Assembly (NCBI GenBank): GCA_903854475.1
Contig: CAINWP010000214.1
Span: 1-42,777, forward strand
Source of the DNA: an uncultured Verrucomicrobiota bacterium
GTDB taxonomy: Bacteria; Verrucomicrobiota; Verrucomicrobiia; Limisphaerales; UBA9464
Direction of reading: 5' to 3'
Length of the DNA: 42,777 bases
Shown: one piece after another, positions 21,873 to 40,208 of the stretch
How the letters are laid out: each line of letters starts with the position of its first letter
Numbering within the stretch: position 1 is the stretch's first letter
The notes under the pieces: model-generated
Seen by the model: the letters and a program-made list of their open reading frames with translations, nothing else
The model's database searches: none
Told to the model about the DNA's origin: nothing
Program-made: the position numbers and the translations under genes

Positions 21873-22592
21873 ATGAAGCCTTCAACCTTGACTCGCACCT
21901 CCTCCCGGCTCGCCTTCACGCTCATCGAGCTGCTGGTGGTCGTGGCCATCATCGCCATCTTGGCCGGAATGCTCCTGCCCGCGCTGGCCAAGGGAAAGAC
22001 CAAGGCCTTGCAGGCGCGTTGCACGTCGAATCTCCGCCAAATCGGAATGACCTTCGCCATGTACACCGGCGACTCGAACGACCGGTTTCCTTACTCCGGT
22101 CGCGATTGGCCACAAATGGGGTTCATCGATTTCCTCAAGCTGATGGATCCCTACATTAGCACCAACGCACGATCCTTCTATTTTTGCCCGTCGGAAAAGG
22201 GTCGTGGATTCAACCTCGAATGGACGATTGCCAACAATTACCCCATCAAAACCAACGAGCTGCTCTTTCCCTGTTCGTATTACTACTACAATCAGTTCTA
22301 CCACAACAACGACAGCTCTGCTCTTCAAGTTCGCAAGGTCACCGAGGTCCTGTCTCCGACCAAGAAAGCCATCTCACCCTGCTTTTCCAGCAATCGGGGA
22401 AAGTGGAACGACATTTACAAGGGCACCGGAGCCGCCGCGCACGGACCGCGGGGCATGTCGTTGCTCTTCGTGGACGGGCATAGCGAATTCGCCCTTTACG
22501 ACCGGCTGAATGCGCCATTTAAAGACGGCGCCAAGCTCATTTACAACCTCGACTGGACCGTTGGCAGCCTCGGCGGCGAAGACCTGAAATAA
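21873..22592 (+). CDS. Prepilin-like pseudopilin with H-X9-DG end
   Basis: The product of 239 residues carries a type II/IV prepilin N-terminus: a short basic leader, then the cleavage region and hydrophobic helix FTLIELLVVVAIIAILAG, and LPALAKGKTKA with charged residues after it. The C-terminal half has the Verrucomicrobia/Planctomycete pseudopilin signature GMSLLFVDGHSEFALY (the DG-containing end). Such proteins are usually processed by prepilin peptidase and displayed on the envelope or in secretion pseudopili. I chose the ATG at 21873, directly before the leader; upstream in-frame codons are unlikely to be coding. It is not near secretion genes, which is common for this family. Confidence 0.9.
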   Translation: MKPSTLTRTSSRLAFTLIELLVVVAIIAILAGMLLPALAKGKTKALQARCTSNLRQIGMTFAMYTGDSNDRFPYSGRDWPQMGFIDFLKLMDPYISTNARSFYFCPSEKGRGFNLEWTIANNYPIKTNELLFPCSYYYYNQFYHNNDSSALQVRKVTEVLSPTKKAISPCFSSNRGKWNDIYKGTGAAAHGPRGMSLLFVDGHSEFALYDRLNAPFKDGAKLIYNLDWTVGSLGGEDLK

Positions 22593-31558: not shown

Positions 31559-31873
31559 ATGAGCACACCTTCAAGCCAGTTTTCGCACGTCGTCATTTTC
31601 TGGACCGACCCCGCCAACCCCACAGCCGCCGATGAACTCATTGCCGGAGGCGAGAAGTACCTGAAGCCGATCCCGGGCGTGATCCAATTTCACATGGGCC
31701 GGATGGTGGGTAGCCCCCGTCCCGTGGTGGATCAATCTTATCAGGTGGCCTTGAACCTGATCTTCCCTAGCAAGCAGGCCCAGGATGAGTACCAGATTCA
31801 TCCGGAACATTTGAAGTTCGTCGAACATTGCCGCGCTCTGTGGCAGAAGGTCACGGTATACGACTTCGCCTAA
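31559..31873 (+). CDS. Dabb (stress-responsive alpha/beta barrel) protein
   Basis: This 104-residue single Dabb domain belongs to the dimeric alpha/beta-barrel superfamily of ferredoxin-like fold. The pattern is FSHVVIFWTDPA at the start, GVIQFHMGRM in the middle, YQVALNLIFPSKQAQDEYQIHPEHLKF (the typical Y-x-x-H-P-x-H stretch, here YQIHPEHLKF) and WQKVTVYDF at the end. Most members have no assigned substrate. It is likely cytoplasmic. A rho-independent terminator follows. Confidence 0.9.
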   Translation: MSTPSSQFSHVVIFWTDPANPTAADELIAGGEKYLKPIPGVIQFHMGRMVGSPRPVVDQSYQVALNLIFPSKQAQDEYQIHPEHLKFVEHCRALWQKVTVYDFA

Positions 31874-32013: not shown

Positions 32014-32483
32014 TTACTGAGGCTCAGGCAACAGCAAATCCATCACGCTATAGGCTGCAACTGTTGGTCGGTTGGGGATGACTTTCAGCCTCTGCTTGAT
32101 CACCACGGTGCTCGGGGCCGAAGCGCCGCTGAAGGCAAAGAACTGTACCTCACTGCTCTTCAACCAAGCAGCCGCCTTGGAACTGAGACCGCAGGCCGCA
32201 ATGAACTCATTCCGATCCAGCATGGGGTGCTGAGGATTGGCCAACCGGTAAGGGGTGTACTTGCGCTGAATTTCCTCCTGAAACGCAGGCGCTTCGATTT
32301 CGCCACTCAATTGGCGGGCCTTCTTCAAGGCTTTGAGGGCCGCCGGGGCCATCATCGACATCAGAATGCCGATGATCCCCATGACACACACAGCAACTCG
32401 ATGAGCGTTACGCCCAACGCCTGCCCGGAGCTTTGCCAAGACCCACCCCGTCTCTTTTGAGAAATCCGAGGTTGCACCTTCAT
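32014..32483 (-). pseudogene. Prepilin-like gene broken by a GT-repeat frameshift
   Basis: On the minus strand the ATG at 32481-32483 starts a protein with a typical prepilin signal: a basic leader, then GVTLIELLCV, cleaved by family analogy after the Gly. At TGTGTGTGT (plus 32384-32392) the frame is lost and a stop follows within 8 codons. The sequence beyond it reads, in another frame, MGIIGILMSMMAPAALKAL and a ~140-residue mature domain to the stop at 32014. Removing two bases (one GT) from the repeat restores a perfect prepilin helix. It is a single-domain pseudopilin, 15 bp downstream of lepA on the same strand. It may be a real pseudogene, a phase-variable gene or a sequence error. Confidence 0.85.
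32384..32392. repeat. Short AC/GT dinucleotide tract at the frameshift
   Basis: The tract is ACACACACA on the plus strand (TGTGTGTGT on the coding strand). It lies within the hydrophobic prepilin signal and is the exact place where the reading frame is lost. Dinucleotide tracts slip in 2-bp steps, which fits the 2-base surplus seen. Confidence 0.85.
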
Positions 32484-32498
32484 GGGATCCGAACCGCC

Positions 32499-34292
32499 TT
32501 AGTTGGTCTTGAGCACCTCGATAAAGGCCTCCTGCGGGATGTCCACTGAACCCACGGACTTCATGCGCTTCTTGCCCTCGCGCTGCTTCTCCAGAAGCTT
32601 ACGCTTACGGCTGATGTCGCCGCCATAGCACTTGGCCGTCACGTCCTTGCGCATGGCGCTAATGGACTCACGAGAAACGATTTTGCTGCCAATGGCTGCC
32701 TGGATGGCGATCTGGAACTGCTGCCTAGGAATGACGTCCTTGAGCTTGGCCGCCAAATTGCGCCCCCGGGCCTCGGCCTTGGATCGATGAACCAGACTGG
32801 AGAAGGCTTCCATCACCTCGCCGTTAACCATCATGTCCAGTTTCACCATGTCGCTGGCTTCCAATCCATCCGGTTCATAATCCATTGACCCGTAGCCTCG
32901 GGTGATGGATTTGATGCGGTCGTGGAAGTCGATGAGGATTTCGTTCATCGGGATCCGGCAGGTCAGCATCACCCGCCGCGTGTCGAGGGTTTCGGTGTTC
33001 TTGATGAACCCACGCTTCTCGGAAATCAGCCCCATGATGTCGCCTAGGTTCTCACCCGGAGTGATCACAAACGCCTTCACGATGGGCTCCATGACGGTCT
33101 CGATGTAAGTGACGTCGGGCATGAAGGCGGGATTGTCCACCTGCTTAACCGTCCCATCGGTCATGTGGACCTGATACACCACGCTCGGGTAGGTCGCGAT
33201 GATATCCATGTCGAACTCGCGGCGGAGGCGTTCTTGCACGATCTCCATGTGGAGAAGTCCGAGGAAACCGCACCGAAGTCCGAAACCCAACGCCGCCGAG
33301 CTCTCAGTCTGGTAGGTCAGGGCTGAGTCGTTCAACTGCAGCTTGGCGATGCTGACCTTGAGCCCCTCGTAGTCGGCCGTGTTAATCGGGTAAATGCCCG
33401 AGAAGACCATCGGATGAATCTCCTGGAAGCCGGGGAGTTCGGTCGACGGATTGCGCGGATCGGTGATGGTATCACCCACCTTCACTTCGCGCGGGGTCTT
33501 AATATTGGCCGTGATGTAGCCTGTCTCGCCCACCGTCAATTCATCGCGGGTGTAAGGCTTGGGATTGAAGGATCCGACCTCCTTGATCTCCACTGTCCGC
33601 CCCGAGTGCAGCAACTTGACCATCATGCCCGGCTTCAGGGTCCCGTTGGTCACTCGGACCAGAATCACCACACCTTTGTAAGTGTCGAAGTAGCTGTCGA
33701 AAATCAACGCCTGGAACGATTTTGCCTCGGTTGCCTTCGGAGCAGGCAAACGATGAACGATTGCTTCCAGAATGTCTAAAATACCAATGCCTTCCTTGGC
33801 ACTGGCTAAGATGGCGTCCTCAGCAGGAATGGCCAAAATCTCCTCCAACTGCTGCTTGGCCATCGGAATATTCGCATGCGGCAGATCGATCTTGTTAATG
33901 ATCGGGATGATCGTCAGGCCCTGCTTCATGGCCAGATGCACATTGGCCACAGTCTGAGCTTCCACGCCTTGGGCCGCATCGATGATGACCAGAGCTCCTT
34001 CGCAGGCACTCAGGGAACGGCTGACCTCGTAGGCAAAGTCGACATGTCCAGGAGTGTCGATCAGATTCAACTCATAGCGTTCTCCATTTTTGGCCACGTA
34101 GTACATCGTAACCGGATGTGCCTTGATGGTGATGCCCCGCTCCTTCTCCAAGTCCATCGCATCCAAGTGCTGTGCTTGGAGCGTCCGATCTTCGACAGTC
34201 CCCGTCGTCTGGAGCAATCGGTCCGACAGGGTGGTCTTCCCGTGGTCGATGTGGGCGATGATACTGAAATTTCGAATGTGTGCGGGGTCCAT
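32499..34292 (-). CDS. lepA: Elongation factor 4 (LepA)
   Basis: LepA is a ribosome-bound translational GTPase that affects translation elongation and initiation under stress. The 597-residue protein matches the usual ~600 residues. The G domain has AHIDHGKTTL, the switch I RGITIKAH, DTPGHVDF and NKIDLP; domain II and the C-terminal LepA-specific part (KRKLLEKQREGKKRMK) are intact. I chose the ATG at 34292 because the family begins with a short segment before IRNFSIIAHIDHGKT; the frame stays open 28 codons further upstream. It precedes the broken prepilin gene on the same strand. Confidence 0.97.
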   Translation of the reverse strand: MDPAHIRNFSIIAHIDHGKTTLSDRLLQTTGTVEDRTLQAQHLDAMDLEKERGITIKAHPVTMYYVAKNGERYELNLIDTPGHVDFAYEVSRSLSACEGALVIIDAAQGVEAQTVANVHLAMKQGLTIIPIINKIDLPHANIPMAKQQLEEILAIPAEDAILASAKEGIGILDILEAIVHRLPAPKATEAKSFQALIFDSYFDTYKGVVILVRVTNGTLKPGMMVKLLHSGRTVEIKEVGSFNPKPYTRDELTVGETGYITANIKTPREVKVGDTITDPRNPSTELPGFQEIHPMVFSGIYPINTADYEGLKVSIAKLQLNDSALTYQTESSAALGFGLRCGFLGLLHMEIVQERLRREFDMDIIATYPSVVYQVHMTDGTVKQVDNPAFMPDVTYIETVMEPIVKAFVITPGENLGDIMGLISEKRGFIKNTETLDTRRVMLTCRIPMNEILIDFHDRIKSITRGYGSMDYEPDGLEASDMVKLDMMVNGEVMEAFSSLVHRSKAEARGRNLAAKLKDVIPRQQFQIAIQAAIGSKIVSRESISAMRKDVTAKCYGGDISRKRKLLEKQREGKKRMKSVGSVDIPQEAFIEVLKTN

Positions 34293-34449
34293 CGTGGTGC
34301 AGAACCGAAGGGAAGCGGTCGAACCTTTTTGAGTCCGATCCTTCTCCGCTACGGGAGCGGGCAACATACCGGGCAAGCTCTATTTGGAAAGCCCAACATT
34401 GGCCCAAGACGGACTGGGCCCGATGGACTAGATCCCCCTAACAAAGCTG

Positions 34450-36717: not shown

Positions 36718-37659
36718 ATGGCCACCAAAGTCATCCGCAAAAAGGCGATCGGCGTCGATCCCGTCGAGCCCGCAGTCACCCCGCCGACCCACGATGCTGC
36801 TGACACCGCATTCCTCACCAAGCCCAAGCTGACCTCCAAGTCCAAGAAACGGGATATTCCCGAGGGTTTGTGGAGCAAGTGCCCTAAATGTGAGGGTTTG
36901 ATTTACGACAAGGATCTAGACGACAATCTTAAGGTCTGTCCGAAGTGCAGCTACCACTTCAAGATCGGTTCCCGAGAGCGCATCCATTCCATGGTGGAAA
37001 CGTGTTCCTTCGAGGAAATGGACGCTTCAATGGAAAGCGTGGACATCCTCAAGTTCACGGGAGCAGCCAGTTACGAGGCCAAGCTGGCCGCCTATCGAAA
37101 AAAGATGTCCATGCTTAAAGACGCCGTGGTCACCGGTGTCGGCATGCTCGGCACGCACCGGGTGGCTCTGGGGGTTATGGATTTTCAATTCCTCGGCGGC
37201 TCTATGGGCTCGGTGGTGGGAGAAAAGCTCACCCGACTGATCGAGACCGCGACCGATCGAGGTATTCCCCTGATCATCGTTTCCACCAGCGGTGGAGCTC
37301 GCATGTATGAGGGCATGTTCAGTCTGATGCAGATGGCCAAGACCTGCGGAGCCCTCGCCTACCTCGCTAAACAGCGGTTGCCTTACATTAGTGTTCTGAC
37401 GGATCCCACCACCGCCGGCGTCATGGCCAGCTACGCCAGTGTTGGAGACCTCATCGTAGCAGAACCGGGAGCTACTATTGGTTTTGCCGGCCGACGCGTG
37501 GTCGAGGCCACTACCCAGTCAGAACTGCCTCCGGACTTCCAGACGGCCGAGTTCCTCATGAAACACGGCATGATCGACGCGATTATCTCCCGCCTCGAAA
37601 TGAAGTCCCGCCTGAGCACTTACCTCGACTTTATGATGTCGGGCCGTCGGGCCGCCTGA
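36718..37659 (+). CDS. accD: Acetyl-CoA carboxylase carboxyltransferase beta subunit
   Basis: AccD joins AccA in the carboxyltransferase step that makes malonyl-CoA for fatty acid synthesis. The 313-residue protein has the N-terminal zinc ribbon WSKCPKCEGLIYD with a second pair, VCPKCSYHF. The crotonase-like core shows GTHRVALGVMDFQFLGGSMGSVVGEK, STSGGARMYEGMFSLMQMAKT, TTAGVMASYASVGD and EPGATIGFAGRRVVE. An N-terminal extension of about 35 residues precedes the zinc ribbon. GAGGAG lies upstream of the ATG but about 12 bp away. accA is not in the window. Confidence 0.97.
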   Translation: MATKVIRKKAIGVDPVEPAVTPPTHDAADTAFLTKPKLTSKSKKRDIPEGLWSKCPKCEGLIYDKDLDDNLKVCPKCSYHFKIGSRERIHSMVETCSFEEMDASMESVDILKFTGAASYEAKLAAYRKKMSMLKDAVVTGVGMLGTHRVALGVMDFQFLGGSMGSVVGEKLTRLIETATDRGIPLIIVSTSGGARMYEGMFSLMQMAKTCGALAYLAKQRLPYISVLTDPTTAGVMASYASVGDLIVAEPGATIGFAGRRVVEATTQSELPPDFQTAEFLMKHGMIDAIISRLEMKSRLSTYLDFMMSGRRAA

Positions 37660-37923: not shown

Positions 37924-40137
37924 TTACCGCCGCGATGTGCGCCCTCGACCCGCGGGCTTTCGATCCGCGGTGTCTCGTCCTGTCGGTTTCCGCACACCTG
38001 TTTTCCGCTCAGTGGGCTTACGGCCCGCGGTGGGCGCTCGGCCTTCGGTAGGTGTACGACTCTCGGCGGACCGACGGCCCGCGGTGGGAGCCCGACCTTC
38101 GGCGGACTTACGACGCTCGGCTGATGGACGGCCCTCGGCGGACTTACGACCGGTAGGCTTAAGCCCCCCGGTGGGAGCTCGACCTTCGCCGGACCTACGA
38201 CCTCCGGTAGGAGCCCGACCTTCGGCGGACCTACGACCCTCGGTGGGAGCCCGACCTTCGGCAGACTTACGACGCTCGGCTGAGGGACGGCCCTCGGCGG
38301 GCTTACGACCGGTAGGCTTAAGGCTCTCGCTCTTCCAGCCCTCACTCTTGAGCGGGCGAGCGCCGGGTGCCTTGTCGAAACGGCTCGATGAGCTCTCGGC
38401 CCTTGTGTTCACGGCCGTTGACTCCGGCCTTCCGGGTTTTGCTGTCTTGAAACTCGAAGACGCTGGTTTAGTTCCTGGCCGGCTGGACGACCTTGGCCCA
38501 CCCCTGCCAGCGGCTGGGTTCTCCGACCGGGCCGCCTTGCGGGCCACCGCACGTTCTGCCAGCGGCGACAACTGCCGCTCACCGCCCTCGCGTTTGTGAG
38601 CAAAGGGCTGTTTGCGGAATCTCCGGACCGAATCGATGGTTTTCGGACGCGGCTTGGGCACTAACACGATGGGGCAGCCCTCGAAACCAAAGGCCTTCCG
38701 CATCTCGCCCGTGAGGTACTTCATGTACTGAGAACTGAACAATTCGTTCCGGTTCACGAAGAGCAGGAAGGTCGGAGGTGCCTGCCGCACCTGAGTCGCG
38801 TAGTAGAATTTTAGCCGATGTCCCATGTCGCTGACCGGTTGTCGGCGTTCAATGGAGTCATTGAGAGTACGGTTCAGAATGGCCGTGGGGACCTTCTGCT
38901 TCAACTGGCTGGCGACGTATCGTACAGCCTCCAACAGACGGTCCAGTTGGAACCCATCCTTGGCGGAGGTAAAGATCACTGGAGCGTAATCGAGGAAGAA
39001 GAGTCGATCCTGAACCCACTGACCGAACTCCGATAGGGTGGTCAACCGCTTCTTCCGATCGTCGCGGTCTCGGTTATTACCCTGACGAACCTCGATCTCT
39101 TGTTCGCGCGCTTTCCGCACGTCCTCGGCCACAAGATCCCACTTATTGACCACCACGATGCAGGCGCGTCGCTGCTCGACAATCACGTCGGCAATCTTTT
39201 TGTCCTGTTCGGTAATTCCGCTCATCGCGTCGATCACCAGCACGGCGATATCGCAGCGAGCGATGGCGCCCTTGGTTCGTTCAACAGAAAAGTATTCGAT
39301 GCTGTTGTCGATGCGTCGTGCTTTTCGGACACCGGCAGTGTCCACAAGGACGTACTGTTCGCGACCGGCCTCGGTCACCACCTCGAAGGGAACATCCACC
39401 GCATCGCGGGTAGTCCCGGGAATTTCGCTGACGATAACCCGATCGGATCCGGTCACCCGGTTGATGATGGAAGACTTGCCGACATTCGGGCGGCCAACGA
39501 TAGCCAAGCGCTTCGGACCGTCGGGCCGGCGACGCGGCAAGGCTTCGCCCTCCTCTCCTTCCTCAGGTGTCACGGCATCCCCGTCCGCATTGACCTCATC
39601 GGTTTCAGCCGGTTTTGTGGCCGCGCTCCACTGGGGCAGAAAACCGACGGCCGCATCCATCAGGTCCTCGATACCATTCCCATGAATCGCGGTGACCGCA
39701 TAGATTCGCTCGAAACCCAGCGCTGAAAACTCTGTTGCGCCCGCGGTTGCCTGATAGTTGTCCGACTTGTTCACCACCACCAAGACAGGCTTCTGGATCG
39801 TTCGCAGCTTCTTGGCCACCTCCTGGTCCAAAGGAACGATGCCCTCCTGAACATTGACCACCAACAGAATCACGTCTGCTGCATCGATGGCCAAGTCGAC
39901 CTGCTGCAATGCGGCAGCGGTGATCACATCAGCGGCTTTTTCACGGCGCAACAACCCGATACCGCCCGTGTCCACCAGCGTGTAAGGGCGACCGTGCCAT
40001 TCGGCCTCGGCCATCACACGGTCACGAGTGACACCGGGTTGATCATGAACAATGGCGATGCGGCGACCGACGATTCGATTGAAGAGCGCGGACTTGCCGA
40101 CGTTGGGACGGCCCACGATGGCGATGAGACCTGACAT
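37924..40137 (-). CDS. der: Ribosome biogenesis GTPase Der with long repetitive tail
   Basis: Der (EngA) is a double-GTPase that acts in 50S ribosome assembly. Both G domains are present: AIVGRPNVGKSALFNRI, DTGGIGLL and NKSDN, then AIVGRPNVGKSSIINRV, DTAGVRKARR and NKWDL. A KH-like domain ends around FEGCPIVLVPKPRPK. The normal family length is about 440-490; this one is 737. After residue about 500 a roughly 235-residue tail follows, rich in Arg, Lys, Ser, Gly, Pro and Ala. It carries repeats such as RRSAEGRAPTGG and RRKSAEGRAPT. It is highly basic and predicted to be disordered, so it may bind RNA. I chose the ATG at 40137 because the family begins at GLIAIVGRPNVG. An upstream in-frame ATG at 40200 is possible. 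Confidence 0.95.
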   Translation of the reverse strand: MSGLIAIVGRPNVGKSALFNRIVGRRIAIVHDQPGVTRDRVMAEAEWHGRPYTLVDTGGIGLLRREKAADVITAAALQQVDLAIDAADVILLVVNVQEGIVPLDQEVAKKLRTIQKPVLVVVNKSDNYQATAGATEFSALGFERIYAVTAIHGNGIEDLMDAAVGFLPQWSAATKPAETDEVNADGDAVTPEEGEEGEALPRRRPDGPKRLAIVGRPNVGKSSIINRVTGSDRVIVSEIPGTTRDAVDVPFEVVTEAGREQYVLVDTAGVRKARRIDNSIEYFSVERTKGAIARCDIAVLVIDAMSGITEQDKKIADVIVEQRRACIVVVNKWDLVAEDVRKAREQEIEVRQGNNRDRDDRKKRLTTLSEFGQWVQDRLFFLDYAPVIFTSAKDGFQLDRLLEAVRYVASQLKQKVPTAILNRTLNDSIERRQPVSDMGHRLKFYYATQVRQAPPTFLLFVNRNELFSSQYMKYLTGEMRKAFGFEGCPIVLVPKPRPKTIDSVRRFRKQPFAHKREGGERQLSPLAERAVARKAARSENPAAGRGGPRSSSRPGTKPASSSFKTAKPGRPESTAVNTRAESSSSRFDKAPGARPLKSEGWKSESLKPTGRKPAEGRPSAERRKSAEGRAPTEGRRSAEGRAPTGGRRSGEGRAPTGGLKPTGRKSAEGRPSAERRKSAEGRAPTAGRRSAESRTPTEGRAPTAGRKPTERKTGVRKPTGRDTADRKPAGRGRTSRR
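38082..38163. repeat. 82-bp coding repeat in the der tail, copy A
   Basis: It matches 38241-38322 at 79 of 82 positions, offset by 159 bp (53 codons), so the reading frame is kept. It encodes the R-S-A-E-G-R and K-P-T-G-R repeats of the Der tail. The tail also contains shorter 12-residue repeats. Confidence 0.9.
38241..38322. repeat. 82-bp coding repeat in the der tail, copy B
   Basis: This is the partner of 38082-38163, with three mismatches. It indicates a recent in-frame duplication inside the tail-coding part of der. Confidence 0.9.
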
Positions 40138-40160
40138 GCCCGAAATCATGGCCGACACAG

Positions 40161-40208
40161 CTAATGGGAAAAAGCTCTTTGTGGGATCTCTGTATTGCAA
40201 CCCATTAG
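40161..40208. promoter_or_regulatory. Perfect 8-bp inverted repeat in the der leader
   Basis: CTAATGGG (40161-40168) and CCCATTAG (40201-40208) are perfect inverted repeats separated by 32 bp, just upstream of the chosen der start. The region lies between the divergent der and transketolase genes. It could be a regulatory hairpin in the der leader or an operator pair. A start at 40200 for der would lie inside it, which argues for the later start. Confidence 0.4.

Follow-up and report, generated by a model that had tools for sequence, protein, structure and literature searches.

A GT tract marks a frame change in a lepA-adjacent prepilin-like gene of an uncultured Verrucomicrobiota bacterium

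In the deposited sequence of a 42,777-nucleotide stretch of DNA, analysed as a whole and hereafter called the window, a prepilin-like gene on the minus strand changes reading frame at a short GT tract. The frame change itself is certain, and its position was established with intact homologues, one of which carried the same tract minus one GT. We consider the observation real and its cause ordinary. The chances are about even that it reflects a recent true mutation, a private gain of one GT that is either fixed in the lineage or present at strain level. The features concerned were as follows.

32014..32483, minus strand: broken prepilin-like gene, based on a two-frame match to intact homologues and the prepilin-type N-terminal signal in relatives
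32361..32483, minus strand: N-terminal frame with the leader and GVTLIELLCV, the off-frame SWGSSAF and a stop; 40 aa
32384..32392, minus strand: TGTGTGTGT tract, one GT longer than that of the relative G017; site of the frame change
32014..32391, minus strand: C-terminal frame, VMGIIGILMSMMAPAALKALKKARQ...LLLPEPQ, then a stop
32499..34376, minus strand: lepA (elongation factor 4, EF4), directly upstream of the prepilin gene; linkage kept in 11 relatives
31559..31873, plus strand: Dabb-domain protein (PF07876), the convergent neighbour downstream

The first-pass annotation had assigned the leader with GVTLIELLCV and the rest of the protein to separate minus-strand frames, and both the coordinates and the frames agreed with this. 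The ATG at 32483 opened the frame MKVQPRISQKRRGGSWQSSGQALGVTLIELLCVSWGSSAF, which ran for 40 codons to a stop; its leader began with MKVQ, and MKVQPRISQKRRGGSWQSSGQALGVTLIELLCV was followed by SWGSSAF and the stop ending at 32361. The downstream part of the prepilin (VMGIIGILMSMM...) was located in a different frame reaching 32014, where a TAA ended the frame containing VMGIIGILMSMMAPAALKALKKAR.... The nearest unbroken relatives of the gene had an intact length of 155 codons. Residues 1–34 of the intact 155-aa homologue of G017 matched the first frame (94%, 32483–32382), and residues 30–155 matched the second (87%, 32394–32017). Since this homologue split into two frame pieces, the break was placed within 32382–32394, in accordance with its earlier attribution to the GT tract. 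The identification as a prepilin gene was likewise upheld by the two-frame match to intact relatives with a prepilin-type signal.

The tract comprised 4.5 GT units. At the same place, G017 read GAGTTGCTGTGTGTCATGGGG and the window read GAGTTGCTGTGTGTGTCATGGGG; the surroundings were identical, with one GT fewer in G017 (3.5 units). This difference, together with the intact relatives, supported the earlier proposal that one surplus GT causes the break. The tract sequence occurred once in the window, with 0.18 occurrences expected by shuffling and at least one occurrence in 17 of 100 shuffles; a tract of such length is only mildly unusual. Of the 18 GT/AC runs of at least 7 nt in the 323 kb sampled from the window's genome, it was the longest. 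G011 and G005 read CTGTGCGTGATGGG at the tract position, so the GT repeat itself is not conserved. Most other relatives lacked a GT tract and had TGC GTG there, and a 3.5-unit run was found in G017 only. The repeat is a by-product of the Leu-Cys-Val codons of the prepilin signal. A search of viral contigs for a second copy of the locus, using a flexible-length pattern across the tract, gave no match.

The prepilin gene was located 15 nt downstream of lepA on the same strand. This order was kept in G017, G005, G011, G016 (both contigs), G015, G003, G014, G004, G006 and G013, and additionally in G021, a member of another genus. The arrangement of lepA followed by a small prepilin-like gene (window 32014–34376, L026–L036 and L012) was thus present in 11 related genomes from two genera; none of the more distant homologues was within 1.5 kb of lepA. 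Elsewhere in the window, an ORF at 37924–40200 encoded a GTPase with two GTP-binding domains, Der/EngA-like by sequence, whose tail (37924–38600) was a long low-complexity C-terminus of repeated R/K-S-A-E-G-R-A-P-T units.

Intact relatives of the prepilin gene scored 18.5, 24.8 and 26.2 bits against TIGR02532 (cut-off 16.3). Two were tested against PF07963 (cut-off 21.2 bits), with G016 above the cut-off (23.7) and G017 below it (17.5). The PF07963 scan did not list the window's own gene; because its prepilin signal is split, motif-based annotation misses this copy. The same family had 83 matches in the window's genome, 77 of them above the cut-off, including one at window 21909–21977. No Pfam family matched the C-terminal ~100 residues, and the scores of intact relatives against GspG, GspH and ComGC profiles were far under the cut-offs (26 bits against 88.85 for TIGR01710, the type II secretion major pseudopilin GspG). 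A structural model of the G017 protein contained a helix at residues 27–58 followed by an alpha/beta part, at low confidence (mean pLDDT 59). Foldseek with this low-confidence model returned nothing under E 0.5, and its matches to winged-helix folds were dismissed as chance level. A profile search of PDB sequences gave weak pilin matches, mainly over the N-terminal helix. The N-terminal signal, the absence of a C-terminal family match and the low GspG, GspH and ComGC scores suggest an orphan prepilin-like protein, and on sequence grounds the locus is best read as a conserved lepA-adjacent orphan prepilin gene. A literature search on Verrucomicrobia pseudopilins found nothing useful.

The relatives were compared as one genome per species; those named were metagenome-assembled genomes of Verrucomicrobia, and their isolate names hint at lakes as the source. 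Counting matches that span the site, the frame was unbroken in 24 of 24 comparable loci from 23 related genomes. The comparison of the tract among relatives, as proposed in the first-pass annotation, therefore revealed no relative out of frame, and a repeat shared with G017 alone. The dN/dS was approximately 0.07–0.31 among the close four prepilin genes and 0.13–0.31 between the window's gene and its three closest relatives; judged from these alignments, selection on the gene among its relatives is purifying. Private changes (derived or ambiguous) on the window's branch amounted to approximately two nonsynonymous and three synonymous; with such small numbers, the branch appears to carry few changes and no signs of long decay. 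No further stop or indel was present in the 155 codons, so the break is either recent or not real, and this lack of other damage, combined with the few private changes, indicates a young event. An old pseudogene would account for the broken frame. It is contradicted by a reading frame that is intact elsewhere in the gene, by the few private changes and by the intact state of all relatives, and was excluded on account of that frame; it is the least probable explanation considered here.

A recent private gain of one GT, our preferred explanation, would start with replication slippage that adds one GT to the short GT run of the Leu-Cys-Val codons. Translation would then shift frame midway through the membrane helix and end at a stop eight codons on, so that no pilin would be made. 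The mutation may be fixed in the lineage or carried by the strain that dominates the metagenome. In this reading, the presence of the extra GT in the real DNA, its origin by slippage and the loss of function are inferred. As the longest GT/AC run sampled, the tract makes a slippage gain plausible and a natural route if the extra GT is real. The window's genome contained approximately 80 other prepilin-like genes, and the loss of one may therefore be tolerated. The unbroken frames of the relatives and the identity with G017 around the tract speak for this explanation. Against it, a true loss should be disfavoured under purifying selection and in a conserved place beside lepA, and the window's genome contained no second close copy of the gene.

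The main rival is a sequencing or assembly error, in which the true genome is one GT shorter and the prepilin gene intact. We regard such an error as quite possible, though short of probable. In its favour, every relative was in frame, the gene was under purifying selection and its remainder was undamaged; moreover, the window's genome is a draft assembly of 340 contigs. In the draft of G005, accD (L027 4083–4990) was broken by a 52-base gap, whereas the window's accD (36718–37659) was intact. This gene is expected to be essential, and the gap is probably a fault of the draft assembly, which suggests that drafts from this group are not free of errors. Short-read data are seldom wrong at a 9-base dinucleotide run, which counts against an error if the genome was assembled from short reads.

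The background rate of coding breaks was estimated by comparing the 323 kb sample with the available syntenic regions of G011 and G017. Among ORFs with a match in G011, 149 (183 kb) matched in a single frame and a further 10 in two frames. Five of the two-frame matches, all on contig C76, were non-coding on alignment (upstream of likely starts, intergenic, an antisense ORF and a tRNA-looking stretch), and one on C80 was at or past a gene end. One on C142 came down to a single base, with the longer open frame in the window's genome and the broken one in G011. The remaining two-frame matches were on C207, on C142 at 32.5 kb and in the prepilin gene. A gene of ~1071 aa on C80 (L104 ~15650; G000:C80 ~35650) was intact in G017 and in two frames in the window's genome after the loss of 10 bases; at this position G011 carried a stop codon. 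The prepilin gene and this C80 gene were the clear breaks in the window's genome among ~150 genes compared, roughly one per 90 kb. Such coding breaks therefore form part of the background in these genomes or in their assemblies. With only one other clear case, breaks at this level fit normal gene loss rather than an error-rich assembly.

We also considered that a product is still made, through a programmed −1 slip or a restart at the ATG in TGATG. A −1 shift would bring the two frames back together at the cost of one additional residue, and the upstream-frame stop does overlap the downstream-frame ATG. However, the site has no canonical slippery heptamer, no relative needs a shift, and a protein begun at that ATG would have neither the leader nor the pilin-helix Glu5; such recoding is very improbable. 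The remaining weight is divided among programmed shifting, old decay and explanations beyond those considered.

The first-pass annotation had raised the possibility of a phase-variable pseudopilin. In this reading, frequent gain and loss of units in a GT run of unusual shortness, inside the signal peptide, would turn expression of the lepA-adjacent Verrucomicrobia prepilin on and off. A frame break at a simple repeat would fit such a switch, as would the in-frame G017 run that is shorter by one unit. However, scans for dinucleotide phase variation demand at least 6 units (PMC6321876) or count tracts from at least 8 units (PMC5953494), above the 4.5 units seen here, and dinucleotide tracts in Neisseria showed unchanged repeat numbers (PMC5953494). 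Most relatives have TGC GTG in place of the run, which is therefore not kept by selection, and 0 of the 24 other loci were out of frame at the tract. Phase variation is accordingly unlikely, with only a slim chance of being correct, and the comparison of relatives ruled out a conserved contingency locus. Of the alternatives that had been named alongside it, recent decay and sequence error both stand as likelier than phase variation, whereas the old pseudogene does not.

The break is minor in itself, as a single broken gene in a draft genome rich in prepilin-like genes. Of some use is the description of a family of short prepilin-like proteins encoded immediately after lepA in one genus of Verrucomicrobia and in at least one other genus. 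Like prepilins of the TIGR02532/PF07963 type and GspG/GspH-like pseudopilins, the family has a short leader and a G-V-T-L-I-E-L-L hydrophobic helix; unlike them, it matches in the N-terminal part only. The frame change in a simple repeat within a surface-type protein gene resembles the repeat-driven phase-variable surface genes of Neisseria and Campylobacter, whereas the window's repeat is under the accepted cut-offs and is not conserved in relatives, with no variation observed. With lineage-specific frameshifted genes and draft-genome frameshifts, the break shares a single small indel, uniformly intact relatives and a background frequency. It differs from ordinary draft-genome frameshifts in falling within the longest GT run sampled in the genome.
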